This document shows positions 6,446 through 44,594 of a stretch of 64,000 nucleotides of DNA, one piece after another (the stretch's first letter is position 1; every line of letters starts with the position of its first letter). The notes under the pieces were generated by a model. That model was not told the origin of the DNA and made no database searches. It worked only from the letters and a program-made list of their open reading frames with translations. A program made the translations under genes and the position numbers. The stretch comes from Isoetes taiwanensis (Eukaryota > Streptophyta > Lycopodiopsida > Isoetales > Isoetaceae). Location of the stretch: NCBI GenBank assembly GCA_021234155.1, contig JAJEKV010000030.1, positions 12,956,718 to 13,020,717 on the forward strand, read 5' to 3'.

Positions 6446-7150
6446 TTATAATGTGTCTCCGGCGTGAAAATGGCTGACAAGGTGTACATCCTGCGCAGCC
6501 ACTATGACATAATCCACGACACTAGTTCCGCCATCGTGATTGTCCTGTCTGCAAGTGTACCTGTGGGAAGAGGGCCATTGTGGTAGGCCTTTGCATATGA
6601 GCAGGTCAAAAATACCGCACATCGGGAGCAATTGTCTGCCGAAGCGGGTGACCTGACTATCATCTAAGTGCCGTGTGCAAGCTGCCTCTGCGGGATGCAA
6701 CTGCAGCACGTCATCAGCGAGGGGGTCCAGCCGCATGGCCTGTTCCACCCCTGTCCGCCCATTGAAGTCTCCAAGGAGCACGACTCTGCCCATCCGCTTG
6801 TGTTGCTGTATGTCATCATATAGATCGACATATGGGTCCATCCTGTCCACCTCCGGGTGGCTGTGATAGAAGGGACTCTCTGCATGGGGAAAGTAGCAAG
6901 CAGCTAGGAAGAGAGGATCTCCGCCAGGGTGGTGCACTCGGATCCACAAGTAGCGGTTATGTATGTCGGTCTTCTGGAGGGAAACCAAATGTGCCAAGGC
7001 TACCCGGTAGTAGCAGGCAACCCCACCGGTGCCACGTCTCCCTCAGACAACCATTGAACACTAAAATCTTTGGTACCCCGGCAGGTCGGGCAGACAGTAG
7101 CACAGGTGTTCCCATGTCTCCATGAGGAAGATGAGGTCCATGCCCACGGC
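6446..7150 (-). pseudogene. LINE APE-type endonuclease domain, frameshifted
   Basis: The minus strand encodes an EEP/APE-family nuclease that would nick target DNA for target-primed reverse transcription. Visible landmarks are LIFLMETWEH near 7140 (catalytic Glu motif), CYFPHAES in the middle, LLGDFNGRTG (Asp/Asn active-site motif) and SVVDYVIV near 6520. The first part lies in a different frame from the 6446-6997 frame, and a stop separates them around 7060. The catalytic motifs survive, but the reading frame does not. Confidence 0.75.
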
Positions 7151-27459: not shown

Positions 27460-29499
27460 GTGCGGATAATAGTGCAGATGGGTACTTTGATCTTAGTATT
27501 GGATTTAATCCAATATGACTTCATGCATTTCATAAGAGGCTTTTGGGAAGCTAAGCATCTGCATCCTTCTATAGCTAGTGGATTTATCTCTTTAATCCCT
27601 AAAGTGGACAAGCCTACTGAGTTTTCTGACTGGAGACCAATATCTTTAACCAATACCACCTATAAGATCTGTGCCAAAATTATTGCCTCAAGAATCAAAG
27701 ATTATCTTCAGAACTGTATCAGTGGAAATCAGAGTGCTTTTCTCCCTAATAGGTTTATTCTTGAAAACTATATTGCTGCCATGGAAGGGTTGCATTGGAA
27801 TAAAATCTCGAATCAAAACTGTGTTCTCCTTAAGTTAGATTTTAAAAGAGCCTTTGATAACATTAGATGGGATTTCATTGAATATGCTATGAAAAAACTC
27901 GGTTTTCATGATAAAGTCATCCAGTTAATCAATGGTCTGAATCTTAGATCAAGTTCAGCAATTTTAATTAATGGTTCACCTAGTCCTTTTTTCCCTTTGG
28001 AAAGGGGGGTCAGACAAGGTTGTCCTTTGGCTCCCTATCTATTTATTGTGGTGGCTGAGTTGCTGACTAAGGCTGTCATGCATCATCAAAATGTTGGAAA
28101 TTTGACTGGGCTAAAGCTTCCAAAATCCACTGATTCTATTTGCATCCACCAATATGCTGATGACACTTTCTGCTTCCTGGAAAATAAGGATGATAATATT
28201 AATCTTTTTATGGATATCTTGAGCCAATTTAGTGCAGCCTCAGGTGTGGACCTTAATTTATCTAAGTGTGTTATTATTGGTGATAATGACACTAATGTGC
28301 CTGGGATTAAAGTTATTAAAACCTCTGAAGTCACCAAACTTTTGGGAATGCCTTTATCTTTAAATTCAAATCTTTCTGGTCTGTGGTCTCCTATTGTTGA
28401 GAAAATCAGAGCTAAACTTCATACATATAGAAATTCTCTATCTCTGGCTGGTCGAGTGGTAATTGCTAATCAAGTCCTCACCAGCTCCCACATTTATTTC
28501 TCCACTGCTCTTGTGGCTCCTGCCTGTGTCTATAAACAGATTGAGAAGATCATAAGAAATTTTATCTGGAATGGTAATAACTTAGTCAATTGGAACACAA
28601 TCACCATGAGGAAGAAAGAGGGTGGTCTAGCATGTAAAAACATTCATAAACAAGCTCAAGCTCTTGCTGGTAAGTTTGTTTGGAAAGCCCTCAGTGGTTC
28701 TAATAGTGCTGCTTCCAAATTCATTAGATATTGGCTAAAGGAGAGTTCTCCTCTGGGTCATCCCTCAGTCCCTCATGAGCTGCCGAATTCTGCCTTTTGT
28801 GAAGTCTCCTTGGCATCAAACATGTCTCCTCTTATGAGGAATATTATGAAGGCTTGGAATAATATTTTCTCGGCATTCAAATATGAGCAGGATATAAGTT
28901 TTCATTCTGCCATGTCCATCTTTTGGTCTCCTACTTTTAAGGATCATCCAAACCATGTGCTTGCTCTAAAACACCCTCAAACATACAAAAAGTGGAGTTC
29001 TTATGGTATCATTAATCTGGGAGATCTGTGGCAGAATAACAGATGGGTAACCTGGTCTAATCTCAAATCTACTATTAGGGGTTCCCAAACTGATAAAAAA
29101 ATTTACAAGCACATCAGGAACATTGTGGAAAATTCCAATATTAATCAGATCCTGCATAGTAATTTGGATTGGTGTTTAAATAAGAAGAAGTGCTATAAGG
29201 TAAAGGATGTCTATAATTTCCTTCATCAGAGTCCTCATCCTCCCAAGTCTTCCAGTGTTTGGGGAATTGATCCTACTGCTACCAATTTCATTATAAAAAA
29301 TGTTTGGAATTCTTATGCTGCAAAAAAGGTTTCCTTCTTCATTTGGCTCATTGCAAACAAAAGTGTTCCTTGCCTTCAGGTTATTAACAGCAGGAATCCT
29401 AATGTGTCTCCCAATTGCCCTCTAAATTGTAATAATATTGAGGATTTTGAACACATCTTTTTCTGTTCTAAGTTGGATTCCTTATGGGGTAAAAGCATG
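27460..29499 (+). pseudogene. L1-type ORF2: reverse transcriptase and zf-RVT
   Basis: The longest frame covers an almost intact RT domain. Counting from 27460: SLIPKVDKPTEFSDWRPISL at residues 44-63, LKLDFKRAFD (motif A) near 124-133, GVRQGCPLAPYLF (motif B) at about 183-195 and YADD (motif C) at 232-235, then LSLAGRV and a C-terminal zf-RVT segment (VWNSYAAKKVSFFIWL, then Cys/His residues up to FFCSKLDSLW). The RT would copy LINE RNA at a nicked target. The apparent first codon is not an ATG and the upstream endonuclease is missing, so this is a 5'-truncated insertion. Beyond residue 680 the frame enters the MITE. Confidence 0.9.
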
Positions 29500-29794
29500 T
29501 TAGGGTGTACCACTTTTGGAACCTGCAAAAGTACATACACTAGGTACTTCAGAACTGGGTACTTTCTCATTTTTCTTTTCATTAAAATTAGTACAAAAGT
29601 CCAAAATAAAAGTAAAGGACGTGTTAATATTTAAAGTTAAGATAAATATAATGCTATCGAAGACCAAAATATATATAAAAGTTCTAAAATGTACCTTTTA
29701 TTGATATATTACACAGGTACCCAGTACCCAGTTCTGGGTACCTTTTTAGGTACTTTTTTAGTCACTAAATAATACTTTTTAAGGGACACCCTAA
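29500..29794. mobile_element. 295-bp MITE with CATG target duplication
   Basis: Starts TTAGGGTGT and ends ACACCCTAA, giving 9-bp perfect terminal inverted repeats with weaker inner complementarity (GAACTGGGTAC occurs near both ends). CATG flanks it at 29496-29499 and 29795-29798. Removing the element and one CATG rejoins the LINE ORF2 sequence (FFCSKLDSLWGK to FHRSWINRYFG, apart from a one-base slip in an A run). It is non-coding. A 4-bp duplication does not point to a common plant MITE family, so the superfamily is open. Confidence 0.85.
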
Positions 29795-33589: not shown

Positions 33590-35778
33590 ACACAGTGGCA
33601 ACTCCTGAGGGGAATTTAGATCCAGCTTTGGCATTGAAGAATATGTATTAATGCGATCATATATCCAACTTTATCATTGAAGAAAGTGTGCTCAATCCAT
33701 ATAGCCCAAGATGTTGCTGGAAATTCTAGATCTATGCAAGAGTCTGATGATGTGCAGAAAAGTACCAAGTATACTCCATGTGGAAAAGCAAAACAACCAA
33801 CACAAAAGGCAATCATCTTCGTGCTAATCAGGTTTGGTTAATGTTTGTTTGAATGCAATATTAGGCTTTTGTTTGATGTTCCTTTGACCAACAAACGTAT
33901 TAAAAATGAGCACATAATCACATGATGGCAGTGCCAATAGAATATGAAGCGAGTTTCTTAAGATTAAAATTGGTCAGATATTAAATCTAAGGTTAGTCTA
34001 CTTGGCATGGCTTGAATCCTTGCACCTTGCATTCACTAAGTAGAAAGCTTATTGTTTATTGAATGTTCACGTGCTTCTGCCAGAATTTTTTAACGTCATT
34101 AAGCCTACAGAGTAGACATAATAAAGTATAAATCCATGTTGCTTAACATGTAACATTTCTGATCGTGGAAAATGAGCAAAACATATTGAATTTTCTTTGA
34201 TAATTGATGGCATTACAATGGGTTCATGATGTGGTATGGGGCTCTATAGCGGAAGTATAGGGCTGTCATATAACATAGGAGATAATAGACTAATAAGATG
34301 AGCTGAATTTAAGTACGGTTAATGGTCTTTGCATATGTTGACTGAATGGGAAGAACATTAAACCCACTGTTGGGCTGTAAGTTAAAGAAGTAGATGTACA
34401 CGAAAATTGAAGTGTTTCCAATATTGAAATAAAAGGAAAGTTCAGGATATATGTGTTGGCTTTGGACTGGTAATTCTAAGGCCTAGACACGCCATTAAAT
34501 ATTCTGCTTTGCCAAGTTAGAAGGTTCAGACTCCATCAGACTTCTGTGATGTGAATAATTGCTAAACTAAGTAGTAAAATGTATAGATCTGAGCATTTGG
34601 AGATATTTAAGCCCATTTATAATTGCTTGGGCATGTAGTTATGCATTTACAAATAAATAGCTATAAAAATTGGAGAGGTCTTCTTTGTGACTGCAGGTCT
34701 AGATGCTATAAGGAATGTATTCATTAGATTACCGTGGATTTAACGAATTTATATTTAAGAAACATAAAGGCAAAGTGTGTTGCATAGTAGCTGGTCTACC
34801 GATGGCAGCGACAAATTTATTGGCTAAGCATTCTATACTGATTCTAAAGGGCTCATAAATGTGAAGCTTACGAGACACAAATGAGGGCAGTTTGGAAAAC
34901 AGGCTGCTGCATGAAAATTTGGCATCTGACCTTTCTAACAAGGAAAATTTAGGACTAAAATAGACATCTCTTGCATGCCTATTACCAGGAGAGAGGCCTC
35001 CAGACCTCGTCGTGAATCCTTGTCATTATTTTTTAGCATGCATGCTAATCTAATGGATGCATGTGAGTTAAATGCGTTGGCCAGAGTAAGTCAACATGCT
35101 TAGGTTGATGAATAAACCTAGCTATTATGTTTATGATTACATGCAAGGTGAAGGGCGAAAAGCTCAAGAAATCTAAAGCTTACATGTTAGTGACTTAGGC
35201 TCTTACCCTTCTTAGGCTAACTGTCCTCTGGTTCCACTGCAGGTAACGGGATTTCTTGCTCCTATGTGTGTTTTCCCATTATTTCAGATTGGAAAAGCTT
35301 ACACAACAAGATGGCAAATGATGGAAGATTTCAATGGTTAAGTAACATGGTAGAGACCTTTGGGTCTTGGAAATTAATTTGTATGCAACATGTTGGCTTC
35401 AGTACTTTCATATCAAATGATTCAAGTTTGGGAAGTTGTGTAATATAAATTTGCTGAATATCTTTATCCCAGTTCAGAAAAACAGTCTTTTAGACTTAAG
35501 AAAGTATTTTAAGAGTGGTAATACAAAGGTTTATAGAGAACATTTTGGTTCTAAATGAAATTATGTTTATAAGCTCTATAAGGATTTGAAACTTCTTGTA
35601 AATTGTAGAATCTGGTAATTTCTTTAGCTTGGATAAATGTTGACCATTTTAAGGCTTAAGTCAAATGTACACCTGTTTTGGCTTAAGGCTGCATATTGGC
35701 CCGGAGTGGTCTTTGCAAAAGTCCATGAAAGGTAAAAGTCTGTTTGAACAAATTTAGAAGTTTTTTTTTTTTTTTTTT
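33590..35778 (+). repeat. Penelope-like element repeat, old divergent copy A
   Basis: Patchily alignable with copies B and C in the same order: GATCCAGCTTTGGCATT and GATGTTGCTGGAAATTCTAG near 33620-33730 (ORF1 exon 1 region), CTAATCAGGTTTG near 33825 (splice donor), CAAGGTGAAGGGCGAA...CTTAGGCTAACTGTCCTC and GCAGGTAACGGGATTTCTTG at 35143-35255, and CATGAAAGGTAAAAGTCTGT at about 35726. It ends in a T18 run (35761-35778) that directly abuts copy B. Identity is much lower than between B and C, so this is an older copy in head-to-tail arrangement. Confidence 0.75.
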
Positions 35779-38088
35779 ATTAACATTTGTGGATGTGTTA
35801 TGATTTAGACATGCATTGTTCTAGTGGAAGACACAAGGGCATTAGATCATTACCCTGAACTTGATTGTATAAAACCTTGGCTACAAAGGTAATGGGTTTT
35901 GCTAAGGTTGAATGTTGAAAAACCAATTTTGAAGAAATACTTGTTTATGGTGAAGTGGCGAAATACCCTAATGTAAACATGTTATTAGGGTTTCGAAAAA
36001 TAGCTTACAGTTCCGGCAGTCTTCCGGCAGTCTGGCATAATACAACTGGATGGACTCATCGTGATAGTCTGTGGTAGAACTAAAAGAAAAGTGCAGACGG
36101 TAATAAGGACTCCTGATTCTGTATATAAGATGGAGTTCGATGATAAAGAAAATTCGAGAGGGTTATTCTTCCGTTGGATGGTGTTCTTAGTAGAAAAATG
36201 TTCACAGAAATTAGTTGAAGGGAATGGCCCGGAAAAAAGGTGATCTCAATATGGCAACTAGAAGAAAGATTGAGGAAGAGAAATTGAAGTCTACACAGAG
36301 GAAGAAATTGTTTCAATATCACAAGAAGGTTGTGACCCCTGCTCCTGCAATTGATCCAGCATTATGTGTTCAAAATGCTGGATCTATAGTCAAATCAGCA
36401 CAAGAAGTGGTTCAATGCAGTAATCTTGCAAGTATTGCACAAGAAGTTGCTGGAAATGCTAGATCCATTGGGACACAAGATGATGGGGAGACCAGCATCA
36501 AATACGTTCCTCCTTGTAAAAAAGCAAAGAAGCAAATGCAAGAAGATGTTAGTCTTCAACAAGCTAATCAGGTTTGTAAGCTTTAAATTCAAATCATTAA
36601 TGTAAGCTCTATGATATATGATAATAATTGAGCATAATTTGCTGGAAATTCTATGATCTTATGTTTCTATGGATTGTCTTATGCATCTAGTAATATAATT
36701 GTGATACTGGCTTAATAGATCTTGTGGTAAATGCTGTAGATACTTGTTTATTGCTGGTGAAACCTGTTTATTATGGGAACTTCTGAGAAGATGAGATAAA
36801 ACATTGCTTGCATGCAGCCATCTAAGGCAATCTGTTCTACAGGATATAATATTAGGATAGAAATTTGTTGGCTGGAGGGCGGTATGGTTTACAGGAAATA
36901 CATGCTGGATCAGCTTAATACTGAGGATCTATTAAACTTAATAAGTGAATAAGTAGATAAGGGGATTAAGCAGATTTATATAAATTCTAGAATTACTTTC
37001 ATTAATTTGCAGATCTGATGAGGTTATCTATCTAAGGAAATATTATCCATAGTATGGCCATAGGTCCTAAGATAAGACCCAGGGGTGGATCTTGTGTCTT
37101 ATTACATGATATTTTAGTTTGCTACAGAAAATTGGAAGTGCTTAAAATAAAATGCTGTTGACAGTGTTAATTCACAGGATTTACTTGTTAAGTTTGCAGG
37201 TGATAGAGGTTTTAGATCTTATTGGTCTAAGTCTTGATAGAAGGATCATGGTTGATCTTTGATATAGGGAGTATATCCATTCTGGTTAAGCTATTCAGCA
37301 TGATAGATAAAGGGCTTTAGGAAGTTTATCTTACTGAATAAGCCTTTTTTATGGTATTAGTTTTCTAATGTGCCTGCCTTTAAGGAATATGAAAAATAGG
37401 TAGATACATCCGCCTTGATAGATGCATGGCCCTCTGCTGAAGTTTAGTCTTAGTTGATTTTATTCTTTCACCAAGTGGGGTAATTTATTTTCTTTGAGAT
37501 ATATCACGTGATTGTTTAATGAGATTTGAACAATAGTGGTGGTAGATCTGACCCTTAGATTATAAGGGTATGCATTATGTTATACTTTTCGTAAATTCTC
37601 TACTTTGCTTAGATGTGAAACAAGCAAGGTGAAGGGCGAAGAGCCCAAGAAATCCATTGCTTACCTGCTAGTGCTTAGGGCTTTACCCTTCTTAGGCTAA
37701 CTGTCCTATGGTTTACTGCAGGTAACGGGATTTCTTGCTCCTTGATTTGTTTTTCCAAATATTTTGGTTGAGCATTGTTCAAAGCATGGAGTACAATCAT
37801 CAACTACATGGATATTTTGAGGATTGGATATTATATTTGGTGAAAAATGTGGCTATATTGCCTTTCTTTAAGTTTATGAAAGTGGCTTAGGCTTACTTTG
37901 TTAATCGGAAAATGTGTTTTATGTTAAAAAAAATTTCTTTTTGGAAAAAAGTGGTAACCATTTTAAGGCTTAGATTAAGAATGCACCTGTTCTGGATCTA
38001 AGGCTGCAAGTTGACCTAAAGTGGCCTTTGATAAAGACCATGAAAGGTAAAAAGTCTGTCTGACAGATTTAAAAAGGTTTTTTTTTTT
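35779..38088 (+). repeat. Penelope-like element terminal repeat B (5')
   Basis: Begins ATTAACATTTGTGGATGTG after a T run and ends AAGTCTGTCTGACAG...AAAAAGG followed by T11. It carries ORF1 exon 1 and its splice donor (36571/36572). A palindromic CCCTAATG...TATTAGGG lies at about 35970-35994, followed by a tandem CCGGCAGTCTT. It probably contains the promoter. Confidence 0.9.
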
Positions 38089-39079
38089 CACATATTCAGT
38101 TTTCAAGTTATACTTGAAACCTTAAAAGTTGGTTACTTGTTAATTGCAGGTGTGTTATACAAATTACTAATGGGGTTTGCTGATATATCTTTTTTAGGAT
38201 AACGCCAAAACTGGAATTGAAGATTCTGATCCAAGCAATCAATGGTTAAAAGAGTTGATTCTATTCAACTATAACATATGTGGTATTGATAGCCCGAGCT
38301 TTGCTGTACAAACTATTCTGGCTTGCATCAGAAATAAGGAAATTCATTCCTTCATCACCTTCAAAGAAATGAATCTCATGGATAAAAGTAAGTCTCTTGT
38401 GACTTTCTTAGGCTTTAATGGTTGGTTTAGCCTATATCAGAAAATGAAGAAGGCGAATTTTGATTTTACAAAATGCAAAGAGTTTATCACTTCTATGTAC
38501 AATGATGCAAATGCTATATTCTTTCAAAGAACTGTGTTGGAAGATAATTGGGCTGTGATTTTTATGGAGTGCCTAACGGCATTAGAAGATGCAAATGATA
38601 TTGACAATTCTCTCCAGGAAGACTTAAATACTGCAGCAAGTGAAAACCAGTTGGAAAAAACTGAATGTTTATTTTCAGAAGATGATCTGCTTGAATCTCC
38701 AGTAATGCATGAAGATAACACAGATGTTGATACTTCAAATGAGATCACTGTTGCAGATAACAATGTTTATGAGAAGGTTCCTAATCTCAATCTAGCAAAT
38801 TCTTCCTGTTTCCCTGTTATAACAGAGCAATCAGTAGAATGCTACAGTCCAGTGTATGATCATGCTATCTGGAGGAGTTTGAACTTTGGGGCGCTGGCTC
38901 CAATAAATCTAGAGACTTGGTGTGCCCTTGCAGGGATCACAAAGGAGGAAATTGCAGCTGGGAAGATTGCTGCACATAAGATGGAGAAGTATTTTAATAA
39001 GATTGATTCGGGCATCCCATTTGATATGGAGTTTTTTGATATGCCTTGTACGAAGAATAATGGAATCCAAGTCCTATAA
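36224..39079 (+). CDS. Penelope-like element ORF1, spliced (exon 1 in the repeat)
   Basis: Proposed join 36224-36571 and 38198-39079. Exon 1 starts at the first ATG of its frame and encodes about 116 mostly basic residues (MARKKGDLNMATRRKIEEEK, later CKKAKKQMQEDV). It ends AATCAG before GTTTGT. The intron spans 36572-38197; its acceptor TCTTTTTTAG precedes GATAACGCC. Both boundaries are in phase 0, so the frame continues QQANQ to DNAKTGIEDSDP without a stop. Exon 2 (293 codons) is hydrophobic then acidic (LEDANDIDNSLQEDL), and ends at TAA 39077-39079. The same frame reopens at once (see 39080-39796). I recognise no known domain. By position it would be the element's ORF1/gag-like protein. Confidence 0.6.
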
Positions 39080-39796
39080 AAAGGTCATATGGCGTATCCT
39101 AATATCGAGAGAAATGACTATTATCTGAAAAGGATTTGGAGAACTCATTGCCCTTATTTTACGTGTAAATGTCAAAAGAATATCAAATCCATGAAGAAAA
39201 AGGAGGAGAAATGTGGTACTGGTATTATTTGGTTTGACCATGCAATTTGGTTTGTACTCAATAACCTGGATTTAATCTATCCTGATATTTCTCCTATTGC
39301 AAAAATGGTGGCTCTCACAAAGTGGATTAATGGCCCCCTCAGACCTGCTGTACTTGCATATATCTCCTATCTGGAGGTTAGAAGAGTTATGTTGGAAATG
39401 ACTGCTGCATATGCTAAGACCCCTGATAAAGGTCTAAAAATTCTGTTTGGAAATGACAAGTTGGCAGATATTTGTGAGAAAACCATAAAACCAATTACTT
39501 TCCTGAAGTATCAGAATTCTAATTATAAACCTGCTTTTGCTGCTAAGTCTTATACCAGCAGAGGTGGCTCGTCTAAAGAGGTCAAGAAAATTACACCAAA
39601 ATTTCCTCCTCGTATCACTCAAGATCCAGGGCATATTGGAGCTGCCCTTATACAACCTGCCACACCTGGTATAGTGGCCAGCAGCACCAATGAACAAGAT
39701 GACTATTCTATCACAAAAGGAGGAAACAAGACCAATGTTATAAACATTGATTCTCCCAAGGAGCTTGATATAGTTGTGGAAAGTGCAATAGGATGA
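39080..39796 (+). CDS. Penelope-like element ORF1 continuation after in-frame TAA
   Basis: In exactly the same frame as ORF1 exon 2 and separated from it by one TAA codon. It encodes about 239 residues: RNDYYLKRIWRTHCPYFTCK with Cys/His residues, DHAIWFVLNNLDLIYPD, WINGPLRPAVLAYISYLEVR, then a Ser/Lys/Pro-rich tail (SRGGSSKEVKKITPKFPPR). The block DHAIWFVLNN resembles DHAIWRSLNF in the preceding ORF, hinting at an internal duplication. Either a single nonsense mutation in a roughly 650-residue ORF1, or stop-codon readthrough, or a separate ORF from ATG 39089. No known domain. Confidence 0.55.
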   Translation, partial: KGHMAYPNIERNDYYLKRIWRTHCPYFTCKCQKNIKSMKKKEEKCGTGIIWFDHAIWFVLNNLDLIYPDISPIAKMVALTKWINGPLRPAVLAYISYLEVRRVMLEMTAAYAKTPDKGLKILFGNDKLADICEKTIKPITFLKYQNSNYKPAFAAKSYTSRGGSSKEVKKITPKFPPRITQDPGHIGAALIQPATPGIVASSTNEQDDYSITKGGNKTNVINIDSPKELDIVVESAIG

Positions 39797-40067
39797 ATAG
39801 GCTTATATGCCTTCTTTAACTTGGATTTTGCATATACCAAGTTGAAAGATTATGAACAAACCAGAAATATATACATATGCCATTTGGCTTGGTTCTTTGA
39901 ACCAAAGGAAACTTTTAAGTATTAACAAATACTATGTTGTGGAAAACCATGATGAATAACTAATATTGAAGTTTTTGTGGTTGTAATTCCATATGCTGAA
40001 TACTGTAATTCTTTAGCAGAAAAATAAAAAACTCATTGTATTAATTTTGGTTTTATAGGATGACAAA

Positions 40068-42131
40068 ATGGACAAGACCAGAAGGATAACCAGAGATATC
40101 AACATGAGGAAACATCTGACTATTGAAAAAGAAAAAAATGATACTCGTATCATTCATCTCACATTCTTTTCTAAAGCTCTTGACAAATTCAAGGTAAAGA
40201 AAATCTTTTACACAGTTATGTTTGAAGCATTAGGTGAAAGAGGAGTGGAATTGGTCCATAAAACCAAGTTTGCTTGGAAATACATAGATCAGATTAGGCA
40301 TAAGGTGTGTAAGCCTTACAAAATATTTGCAGATGGTACAGTGAATCATTGTCCTTGCAGAAACCCTAATTTGAAGAAATTTATTGATCCTACCATTAAA
40401 CATATCAGGACTACAAATCTGGAAATTATTCATAATACAAAACTTAGAAATGCTTTTTTATGTGGCCTTAACCACATTCCAGATGATGGTTTAAGTATTC
40501 AGGAATTTATGGACGATTTTATCCTTGCGAGCCAGCAATTTATCAATGTTCATAAATTTGATTTACTAGATTTATGTGATTTGGACCTAAAGAACATCTG
40601 TGACATGTTGACTCAACTAGCTCATTGTGAGATTACTGAGTTCAAAACTTCTCTGACTACTAAGAGGTTTCTATGGACTGATCCAGATGTCAAGAAAAAT
40701 GTACAATGGATTACACGTAATCTTTTTGTGGCTGAAATAGACAAAGCTTGCAATAATGCAGCTTTTATTTGTCCACTGCATATAGCTAAAGCTGCCATTG
40801 ATAGACTTAATGGAGAAGACTTTGAGAAGGTAAATTCTACACCTCAGGAAGTCATAATGGCTTGTAAGAATGAAATTTCAGAGTTTATTGGGACTGGAAA
40901 CATTGAATTCCTTAAACTCCCGTATCTCATGGCAATGTACAAGGCACATAAACAGGAGTACAGATGGATTACAAATGCCAATAGTACTCTGTTCTCTGAA
41001 ATATCCAATTTTATTACATCTATTCTAAATTGCTGCTTGGAAATTTGGCCTGCTATATGTCATAAGAAAACAGCCATGTTAAAATTATGGGGACAAAATA
41101 AAATCAATCCTTGTTGGATTGTCAATTCTGTTTATGATGTTGTTCTGAATTGTCCATTGAAAGTCCATGATGTATTTTCTGCAGACATAACAAAATGTTA
41201 TGAAACTATTCCTTTATTTGGTGAAGAAGGAATTATAGAAATCATAAATGGGATCGCTGATATGGTATGGGACCAACAGATTGAAAATGGGAAATTTGAG
41301 CTTATATTTAAGCATAAATCAGAGGGAATCATTACTAAATGGGTCAGATCTGCTAAAGACAAGGAATTTGTAAGTTGGAATAGTGTGAGCAGGGACAAGT
41401 TCAAAAATATGAATAGATGGCTCCTATCCCATTGTTTTCTGCAAATGGGAGATAAAATATGGAAACAGATAAAAGGAATTCCTATGGGGTTTTCATGTAG
41501 CCCTGCATGGTGCAATTTATATCTAGCTTGGTATGAATTACATTTTTTGCTTAAACTTGCTTGGGCTGGAAGAATAACAGATATCTACAGGTTTCAACAT
41601 GCATCTAGGTACATGGATGACCTGAATATATTAAATGGAGGGGATTTACAGGAATTTTTTGCAAAGGACTCAGAAATTACAGTTTATAATATGAATTTTT
41701 TGGGCATTAAAAATGAAACCCTGTATTCTGAACTGAGCAATACACGTGGTTATGAATGTAATTTTCTTAATATAAGTATCCGGGTACTGGATCATGACAG
41801 GGGCATATTCAATGTGACCAGGTTTGATAAAAGGAGAAAGTTACCTTTTAAAGTACACAAATTCATAAAAGCTCAAAGTTGCCGACCATATGCCCAGGCT
41901 TCAAAAGTAATTATTTCTCAAATTCTACCATATGTGTATACTCATTCGGATGCTAATGAGGCTGCAAATGATATTTATGATCTCATATGCACATTCTGTA
42001 AAAATGGGTTTGCCAGAAAAGACATAATCAATGCAGTAATGACCACATTGGAGAATGACATGTTTCCAGGTACATTGTATAATCTAAAGGATATGCTGGT
42101 ATTTCTTAGAGTGCTGGTATACCAAAAGTAG
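40068..42131 (+). CDS. Penelope-type reverse transcriptase, no GIY-YIG domain
   Basis: 687 codons, uninterrupted, starting at ATG 40068; a 3' splice-like TTTTATAG lies 9 bases upstream. Landmarks: a Cys-rich N-terminal block HCPCRNPNLKKFIDP (94-108), NTKLRNAFLCGLNHIP (123-138), the fingers segment MAMYKAHKQEYRWITNANS (288-306), motif A FSADITKCYETIP (370-382, catalytic Asp373), motif B GIPMGFSCSPAWCNLYL (470-486), and motif C RYMDDLNILNGG (514-525, catalytic DD at 517-518). The order and the forms A and B follow Penelope-like RTs, which are related to telomerase RTs, rather than LINE or LTR RTs. The protein ends 160 residues after motif C without a GIY-YIG nuclease, so it may prime on existing DNA ends. 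All catalytic residues are intact. Confidence 0.88.
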   Translation: MDKTRRITRDINMRKHLTIEKEKNDTRIIHLTFFSKALDKFKVKKIFYTVMFEALGERGVELVHKTKFAWKYIDQIRHKVCKPYKIFADGTVNHCPCRNPNLKKFIDPTIKHIRTTNLEIIHNTKLRNAFLCGLNHIPDDGLSIQEFMDDFILASQQFINVHKFDLLDLCDLDLKNICDMLTQLAHCEITEFKTSLTTKRFLWTDPDVKKNVQWITRNLFVAEIDKACNNAAFICPLHIAKAAIDRLNGEDFEKVNSTPQEVIMACKNEISEFIGTGNIEFLKLPYLMAMYKAHKQEYRWITNANSTLFSEISNFITSILNCCLEIWPAICHKKTAMLKLWGQNKINPCWIVNSVYDVVLNCPLKVHDVFSADITKCYETIPLFGEEGIIEIINGIADMVWDQQIENGKFELIFKHKSEGIITKWVRSAKDKEFVSWNSVSRDKFKNMNRWLLSHCFLQMGDKIWKQIKGIPMGFSCSPAWCNLYLAWYELHFLLKLAWAGRITDIYRFQHASRYMDDLNILNGGDLQEFFAKDSEITVYNMNFLGIKNETLYSELSNTRGYECNFLNISIRVLDHDRGIFNVTRFDKRRKLPFKVHKFIKAQSCRPYAQASKVIISQILPYVYTHSDANEAANDIYDLICTFCKNGFARKDIINAVMTTLENDMFPGTLYNLKDMLVFLRVLVYQK

Positions 42132-42273
42132 TGAAAAAAAGAAAATATAGTGGAACATAGGATAGGTAGGGCCTTGTAGTGCAACAAGGTCCTACTTTCC
42201 TTGTTGTCACTACTAATTTTTGTCAAAAGGTCCTCCAGGTTTACCTATTCTACGGTAGGAGGCAGGGTTTTTT

Positions 42274-44594
42274 ATTAACATTTGTGGATGTGTTATGATT
42301 TAGACATGCATTGTTCTAGTGGAAGACACAAGGGCATTAGATCATTACCCTGAACTTGATTGTATAAAACCTTGGCTACAAAGGTAATGGGTTTTGCTAA
42401 GGTTGAATGTTGAAAAACCAATTTTGAAGAAATACTTGTTTATGGTGAAGTGGCGAAATACCCTAATGTAAACATGTTATTAGGGTTTCGAAAAATAGCT
42501 TACAGTTCCGGCAGTCTTCCGGCAGTCTGGCATAATACAACTGGATGGACTCATCGTGATAGTCTGTGGTAGAACTAAAAGAAAAGTGCAGACGGTAATA
42601 AGGACTCCTGATTCTGTATATAAGATGGAGTTCGATGATAAAGAAAATTCGAGAGGGTTATTCTTCCGTTGGATGGTGTTCTTAGTAGAAAAATGTTCAC
42701 AGAAATTAGTTGAAGGGAATGGCCCGGAAAAAAGGTGATCTCAATATGGCAACTAGAAGAAAGATTGAGGAAGAGAAATTGAAGTCTACACAGAGGAAGA
42801 AATTGTTTCAATATCACAAGAAGATTGTGACCCCTGCTCTTGCAATTGATCCAGCATTATGTGTTCAAAATGCTGGATCTATAGTCAAATCAGCACAAGA
42901 AGTGGTTCAATGCAGTAATCTTGCAAGTATTGCACAAGAAGTTGCTGGAAATGCTAGATCCATTGGGACACAAGATGATGGGGAGACCAGCATCAAATAC
43001 GTTCCTCCTTGTAAAAAAGCAAAGAAGCAAATGCAAGAAGATGTTAGTCTTCAACAAGCTAATCAGGTTTGTAAGCTCTAAATTCAAATCATTAATGTAA
43101 GCTCTATGATATATGATAATAATTGAGCATAATTTGCTGGAAATTCTATGATCTTATGTTTCTGTGGATTGTCTTATGCATCTAGTAATATAATTGTGAT
43201 ACTGGCTTAATAGATCTTGTGGTAAATGCTGTAGATACTTGTTTATTGCGGGTGAAACCTGTTTATTATGGGAACTTCTGAGAAGATGAGATAAAACATT
43301 GCCTGCATGCAGCCATCTAAGGCAATCTGTTCTACAGGATATAATATTAGGATAGAAATTTGTTGGCTGGAGGGAGGTATGGTTTACAGGAAATACATGC
43401 TGGATCAGCTTAATACTGAGGATCTATTAAACTTAATAAGTGAATAAGTAGATAAGGGGATTAAGCAGATTTATATAAATTCTAGAATTACTTTCATTAA
43501 TTTGCAGATCTGATGGGGTTACCTATCTAAGGAAATATTATCCATAGTATGGCCATAGGTCCTAAGATAAGATCCAGGGGTGGATCTGGTGACTTATTAC
43601 ATGATATTTTAGTTTGCTACAGGAAATTGGAAATACTTAAAATAAAATGTTGTTGACAGCAGTAATTCACATGATTTACTTGTTAAGTTTGCAGGTGATA
43701 GAGGTTTTAGATCTTATTGGTCTAAGTTTTGATAGAAGGATCATGGTTGATCTTTGATTTAGGGAGTATATCCATTCTGGTTAAGCTATTCAGCATGATA
43801 GATAAAGGGCTTTAGGAAGTTTATCTTACTGAATAAGCCTTTTTTATGGTATTAGTTTTCTAATGTGCCTGCCTTTAAGGAATATGAAAAATAGGTAGAT
43901 ACATCTGCCTTGATAGATGCATGGCCCTCTGCTGAAGTTTAGTCTTAGTTGATTTTATTCTTTCACCAGTAGGGTAATTTATTTCTGCTGAGATATATCA
44001 CAGGATTGTTTAATGAGAGCTGAACAATAGTGGTGGTAGATCTGACCCTTAGATTATAAGGGTATGCATTATGTTATACTTTTCGTAAATTCTCTACTTT
44101 GCTTAGATGTGAAACAAGCAAGGTGAAGGGCGAAGAGCCCAAGAAATCCATTGCTTACCTGCTAGTGCTTAGGGCTTTACCCTTCTTAGGCTAACTGTCC
44201 TATGGTTTACTGCAGGTAACGGGATTTCTTGCTCCTTGATTTGTTTTTCCAAATATTTTGGTTGAGCACTGTTCAAAGCATGGAGTACAATCATCAACTA
44301 CATGGATATTTTGAGGATTGGATATTATATTTGGTGAAAAATGTGGCTATATTGCCTTTCTTTAAGTTTATGAAAGTGGCTTAGGCTTACTTTGTTAATC
44401 GGAAAATGTGTTTTATGTTAAAAAAATTTTCTTTTTGGAAAAAAGTGGTAACCATTTTAAGGCTTAGATTAAGAATGCACCTGTTCTGGATCTAAGGCTG
44501 CAAGTTGACCTAAAGTGGCCTTTGATAAAGACCATGAAAGGTAAAAAGTCTGTCTGACAGATTTAAAAAGGTTTTTTTTTTTTTTTTTTTTTTT
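42274..44594 (+). repeat. Penelope-like element terminal repeat C (3')
   Basis: Near-identical to repeat B. Preceded by GGCAGGG and T6, ending in T23 (44572-44594). To its right the sequence ATAACAACCCATTCAATTC is shared with dispersed repeat family A, where it also follows a T tract (54002-54035), so the element appears to sit in the T tract of such a repeat. Confidence 0.9.
42719..43081 (+). CDS. ORF1 exon 1 copy in the 3' repeat
   Basis: Duplicate of ORF1 exon 1, starting at ATG 42719, with only two amino-acid changes from copy B (VVTPAPAID becomes IVTPALAID). The donor AATCAG/GTTTGT is also preserved at about 43066. No element body follows, so this copy has no exon 2 in cis; it is an ORF only by virtue of the repeat. 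Conservation of the frame argues that the sequence was coding until recently. Confidence 0.6.
   Translation: MARKKGDLNMATRRKIEEEKLKSTQRKKLFQYHKKIVTPALAIDPALCVQNAGSIVKSAQEVVQCSNLASIAQEVAGNARSIGTQDDGETSIKYVPPCKKAKKQMQEDVSLQQANQVCKL

Follow-up and report, generated by a model that had tools for sequence, protein, structure and literature searches.

We analysed a 64,000-nt stretch of the Isoetes taiwanensis genome assembly (the window), located 13.0 Mb into a 17.6-Mb contig. It contains a reverse transcriptase (RT) gene placed between two 2.3-kb direct repeats (pLTR1 and pLTR2), together with a further reading frame, ORF1, and two conserved RNA sequences (Table 1). The RT reading frame is uninterrupted over 687 aa and has motif A SADITKCYETIP, motif B GIPMGFSCSPAW and YMDD. 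A preliminary description of this DNA had reported an intact RT with these motifs, near-identical repeats and an internal plant locus, and all three were confirmed.

Table 1. Features of the element and its upstream neighbour, in window coordinates.
Feature	Position	Strand	Remarks
3' end of older related element	35139-35778	+	Same orientation; ends in T run 35761-35778
Whole element	35773-44594	+	RT between two 2.3-kb direct repeats
pLTR1	35773/35779-38088	+	Starts T6-ATTAAC, T11 at end, then runs into body; 98.5% identical to pLTR2
TATA-like box	36122-36128	+	102 nt before exon-1 ATG
Exon 1	36224-36574	+	117 codons, shared leader in repeat; phase-0 splice donor at 36575
Intron 1, predicted	36575-38197	+	Spans rest of pLTR1; donor and acceptor in phase
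'mot' RNA	37617-37762 (pLTR1); 44111-44256 (pLTR2)	+	About 330 nt before T tract
ORF1 exon 2	38198-39796	+	Conserved CPYFxCKC region; aligned to relatives
RT exon	40059-42131	+	690 codons; ATG-initiated part 40068-42131
Boundary RNA	42157-42277	+	After RT stop; ends GGAGGCAGGG-TTTTTT-ATTA at repeat boundary
pLTR2	42268/42274-44594	+	Ends T23, then unrelated flank
Terminal T run	44572-44594	+	Putative reverse-transcription start / target A-T tract

Across 2308 aligned sites the two repeats share 98.5% identity, with 23 transitions and 11 transversions (K2P 0.0149), and they recur with a period of 6494-6495. In pLTR1 the T run leads into the conserved body sequence, a pattern shared with other internal copies. 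Direct pLTRs derived from tandem or partial-tandem units are a feature of Penelope-like elements (PLEs). The 98.5% identity agrees with the earlier view that the copy is young, and would correspond to an age of around one million years with generic plant substitution rates and on the assumption, unproven for PLEs, that the repeats were identical at insertion. Repeats within one element were generally more alike than repeats from different elements, indicating that they were made together or homogenised. The window pair was about 99% identical, the next locus 97% and others 87% and less; elsewhere the identity was 98% for the pair on contig C919 and 92-100% for the array on C963, which has four repeats in tandem. 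The older element upstream is about 79-86% identical to the 3' part of the repeat and bears the 'mot' RNA, and the younger element begins on its T run. At two other loci (G000:C907:7984785-7991276 and G000:C1071:3069599-3072905) 'mot' was found at a spacing of 3.16-3.18 kb, shorter than the 6.5-kb unit; these are probably non-autonomous tandem units. Around 1173000-1182900 of G000:C919 (L039) the elements are embedded in satellite-like DNA that contains CACAGACGCTG repeat units and T tracts.

A TATA-like sequence was found also in six other copies, at -86 to -101, and may serve as the promoter. The repeat contains exon 1 and the greater part of intron 1. Exon 1 is kept in most copies according to tblastn, and its donor AATCAG/GTTTG is conserved among close relatives. 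The acceptor at 38196-38197 opens ORF1 exon 2 in phase 0. ORF1 had no Pfam or PDB relative, the PDB profile search giving one chance-level match. An in-frame stop (39077-39079) is present in the window copy, and the other copies aligned there are open at this codon. The large novel ORF1 proposed earlier held as regards its novelty, but it consists of two exons with an in-frame stop and is not one intact frame. Because of this interruption, the suggestion that the window copy is possibly active as an autonomous element was weakened.

The RT exon is preceded by a TAG/G-type splice acceptor (40056-40058) in the copies examined. A stop codon usually stands directly before the exon, and in many copies the first methionine is only at RT-exon residue 54-169, with the preceding residues still conserved, so the RT exon must be spliced to an upstream start. 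A donor at the end of ORF1 was considered for this and rejected, as no conserved GT was found there. As exon 1 is in the right phase, splicing of exon 1 to the RT exon is preferred, and from the genomic sequence we infer that exon 1 is alternatively spliced to ORF1 or to the RT exon. Retained spliceosomal introns, a known feature of PLEs, are thus indicated here by genomic evidence. Between ORF1 and the RT exon (39797-40058) there is also a short conserved sequence, GCCATTTGGC(TT/AA)GGTT, which recurs in distant copies.

A profile of 23 family RTs was compared with shallow profiles of telomerase, LINE, group II and gypsy RTs. Telomerase was the top match (score 40, E 1.2e-4) and was in register over motif B, in an alignment of 44 columns. 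Group II (24) and gypsy (21) RTs matched out of register, and LINE RTs scored 11. The telomerase-like character of the RT implied in the preliminary description was thus recovered, and by this ranking, based on a short match, the RT is nearer to telomerase than to LINE, LTR or group II RTs, as in PLEs. The K-x-H-K sequence preceding motif A (YKAHKQEYRWIT), motif C with RYIDD and the FLN..ISRYDKR..SCRPY block resemble PLE RTs, and we used them as a lead and not as a test. Pfam gave only a weak RVT_1 match on the RT, the PDB profile search with the RT gave no match and no relative was found in viral contigs. A single-sequence AlphaFold model of the RT was set aside (pLDDT 34.5). A long open plant LINE-type RT frame in the window (27460-29634) served as a comparison sequence. 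In the same genome a second match to the telomerase RNA-binding domain was noted (L068, G000:C1062:4065477), which differs strongly from the plant-like match located on C1056 (L067). Its coding sequence has many low-complexity runs, and it may be foreign DNA or contamination inside a large contig.

No GIY-YIG domain was detected in the element with Pfam. In a six-frame search of the whole genome (1,658,258,908 bases, 1110 contigs) 121 GIY-YIG matches were found, the nearest being 121 kb from any of 65 listed copies. The preliminary description had stated that the domain was absent and that its presence in full-length copies would speak against the proposal; none was found near the 65 listed relatives. 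The element thus lacks the N- or C-terminal GIY-YIG of canonical PLEs (Penelope, Poseidon, Neptune, Dryad, Naiad, Chlamys), and shares with Athena and Coprina the absence of an RT-fused GIY-YIG in intact copies (65 listed, 49 with an open RT). An endonuclease could act in trans, with an enzyme of another element or of the host cutting A/T-rich targets. The 121 genomic GIY-YIG matches could be sources of such an activity, and a canonical PLE enzyme cuts AT-rich ATT sites (PMC11167929), comparable to the T-ATTA of the insertions studied here. We regard this explanation as unlikely, since both GIY-YIG loci that were read had no adjacent RT frame, one having a PIF1/Helitron-like helicase frame upstream, and since the two insertions read at both ends showed no target-site duplication beyond the T's. 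The loci in question, L065 (G000:C1030:3966149) and L066 (G000:C1034:33957369), have the best GIY-YIG matches of the genome. In L065 the GIY-YIG frame is preceded by the helicase frame, and loci of this type, if general, could be Helitron-like elements with a GIY-YIG domain.

To define the 3' ends, 24 repeats were read, 7 internal and 17 terminal. In all seven internal repeats a run of T6-T11 leads into the same body sequence. Of the 17 terminal repeats, 16 stop at the T tract and continue into unrelated DNA. The terminal ends therefore equal the internal T-tract site, and the insertion end corresponds to a site within the tandem-unit transcript. Internal initiation of reverse transcription is reported for a canonical PLE (PMC11167929). 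T runs at terminal repeats measured 5-28, with a median of 14.5 as compared to 8 for internal ones (p=0.018), homopolymer lengths being uncertain in this nanopore-based assembly. Alternatively, slippage of the RT, and not the target, could account for the long T tails.

The 5' ends are known for only about eight repeats. Body-to-repeat junctions read GGCAGGG-TTTTTT-ATTA or close variants, and outer repeat starts are preceded by a longer T run than these junctions. T12-ATTAAC was not enriched genome-wide (35 occurrences in 1.66 Gb vs 31 for the reversed control). Seven repeats have it at their predicted start (C1035, C919 twice, C963, C1034, C1067 and C589; coordinates compared by eye), and this coincidence with known repeat starts is the sole informative point about the motif. 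Two heterologous junctions on T tails were found, one in the window (35761-35784) and one at L044, where the T tail of the repeat directly abuts the start of a repeat of another family. Both are explained by insertion at T/A tracts, including the tails of earlier copies. Solo repeats can also arise by recombination. The starts at a T run plus ATTA and the ends at a transcript-internal U tract suggest priming on genomic A/T tracts without an endonuclease.

Two structured RNAs lie close to these ends. The boundary RNA stops exactly at the 5' boundary of the unit and has three nested elements (outer helix, middle helix and long hairpin) with a pseudoknot pairing of the loop to the 5' strand. Among 28 distinct sequences the covariation was 0.187 as compared to at most 0.106 with slid partners, and 15 pairs were changed on both sides; the structure was first scored without the middle helix, which was added later, and the evidence for the loop pairing consists of two covarying pairs within a single sub-branch. 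The 'mot' RNA is 88-99% identical across repeats, where the remaining repeat drops to about 60-75%, and it folds better than shuffled sequences (z -4.2), with compensatory changes present. Rfam contained no family for either RNA. Both may be bound by the RT or take part in the formation of the RNA 5' end. Hammerhead ribozymes in or near the pLTR are common, though not universal, in PLEs. Here a hammerhead was rejected, with no Rfam match and 3 matches in a pattern scan as compared to 4.2 in shuffled sequences.

With a protein search of the host genome we found at least 65 near full-length relatives, 49 of them without internal stop. Excepting the window copy itself, the listed relatives are 55-85% identical. 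The dN/dS was 0.06-0.14 for the RT, with one pair at 0.04 and saturated dS, and mostly 0.04-0.20 for ORF1, which indicates purifying selection on both proteins. The tandem array on C963 and the neighbouring elements on C919 could also be read as an old tandem repeat family, no longer mobile, spread by recombination and segmental duplication. However, the copies are spread over dozens of contigs, their flanks are unrelated and start at the T tract, and they have open frames with dN/dS about 0.1, which makes this reading extremely improbable.

On large contigs the distance of the copies from the contig ends is 0.5-24 Mb, and the copies are at least 98 kb away from the telomere-like arrays listed. 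No telomeric repeats were found beside the T-tract ends in the 24 repeats read, so the telomeric 3' attachment and location of Athena and Coprina were not seen. These observations, and the lack of a hammerhead, make it very unlikely that the family is a telomere-targeted, endonuclease-lacking PLE of the Athena/Coprina sort with arrays later internalised by chromosome rearrangement, even though Terminons likewise form head-to-tail arrays without endonuclease (PMC6431247) and the genome holds interstitial TTTAGGG arrays.

Based on these sequence features we classify the element as a putative endonuclease-lacking PLE, young and from a large non-telomeric family. Penelope is not named in the main text of the Isoetes taiwanensis genome paper (PMC8566536). 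Endonuclease-lacking PLEs are listed for Selaginella moellendorffii, Pinus taeda and Picea abies in PMC9033089. Compared by description, these are alike in having a plant PLE-type RT, no endonuclease and pLTR-type repeats, whereas T-tract ends and two conserved RNAs are not described for them in the text consulted. Athena and the Terminons of bdelloid rotifers (PMC6431247) also have an RT protein without GIY-YIG, extra upstream ORFs, head-to-tail arrays and, near the 3' end, an RNA sequence with possible pairing to the target. They differ in having a 3' end of hammerhead and telomere-complementary repeats at chromosome ends, where the Isoetes element has a U tract, no hammerhead, internal sites and 2.3-kb repeats. 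Penelope and Poseidon PLEs (PMC11167929, PMC3846280) share tandem or partial-tandem units, pLTRs, possible introns, internal initiation of reverse transcription and a preference for AT-rich sites, but carry GIY-YIG and a hammerhead, often have target-site duplications, and have pLTRs of roughly 0.2 kb in A. vaga families. Telomerase RT, the top profile match, shares motif A DxxxxYxxIP and the context of motif B. The element RT differs from it in having no telomerase RNA-binding domain in Pfam and no telomere link, and in being encoded by a repetitive mobile unit. The endonuclease-lacking kind of PLE is therefore already known, and new here are the T-tract ends, the long exon-carrying repeats and the two conserved RNAs.

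The anatomy is well supported, and the action of the element is an unproven proposal. RNA polymerase II would start at the TATA box of a pLTR and continue across the body and into the following pLTR. Splicing would link exon 1 either to ORF1 or to the RT exon, so that two proteins sharing a basic N-terminus are made, and unspliced RNA would be the template. The RT would bind the conserved structured RNAs and begin DNA synthesis at the internal U tract that closes the pLTR. The primer would be the 3' terminus of an A tract at a break or nick that was there beforehand, with no nuclease of the element involved. On its upstream side the new copy would be bounded at U6-AUUA, just past the pseudoknot RNA, by an RNA cut or by annealing of the cDNA A6 to the target T strand. 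The T tail of each inserted copy could then be the landing site for the next, giving head-to-tail arrays. We consider it probable that the locus is an endonuclease-free PLE and a member of a large Isoetes family, with this scheme of transcription, splicing and T-tract priming. More speculatively, and with clear doubt on our part, this may be an endonuclease-free PLE lineage in which U tracts at unit ends pair with genomic A/T tracts by microhomology to colonise chromosome interiors, and in which a pseudoknotted boundary RNA, possibly self-cleaving, supplants the hammerhead in forming the RNA 5' end.

PLEs are the sister group of telomerase, and their best-described endonuclease-lacking members occupy chromosome ends. 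The present family is large, non-telomeric and apparently of recent activity, and its defined ends and conserved RNA structures make it possible to test concretely how a telomerase-like RT that does not cut DNA achieves integration. The conserved structures are also candidates for the RNAs that such an RT may bind. The Isoetes family thereby offers a way to study how endonuclease-free elements spread inside chromosomes.
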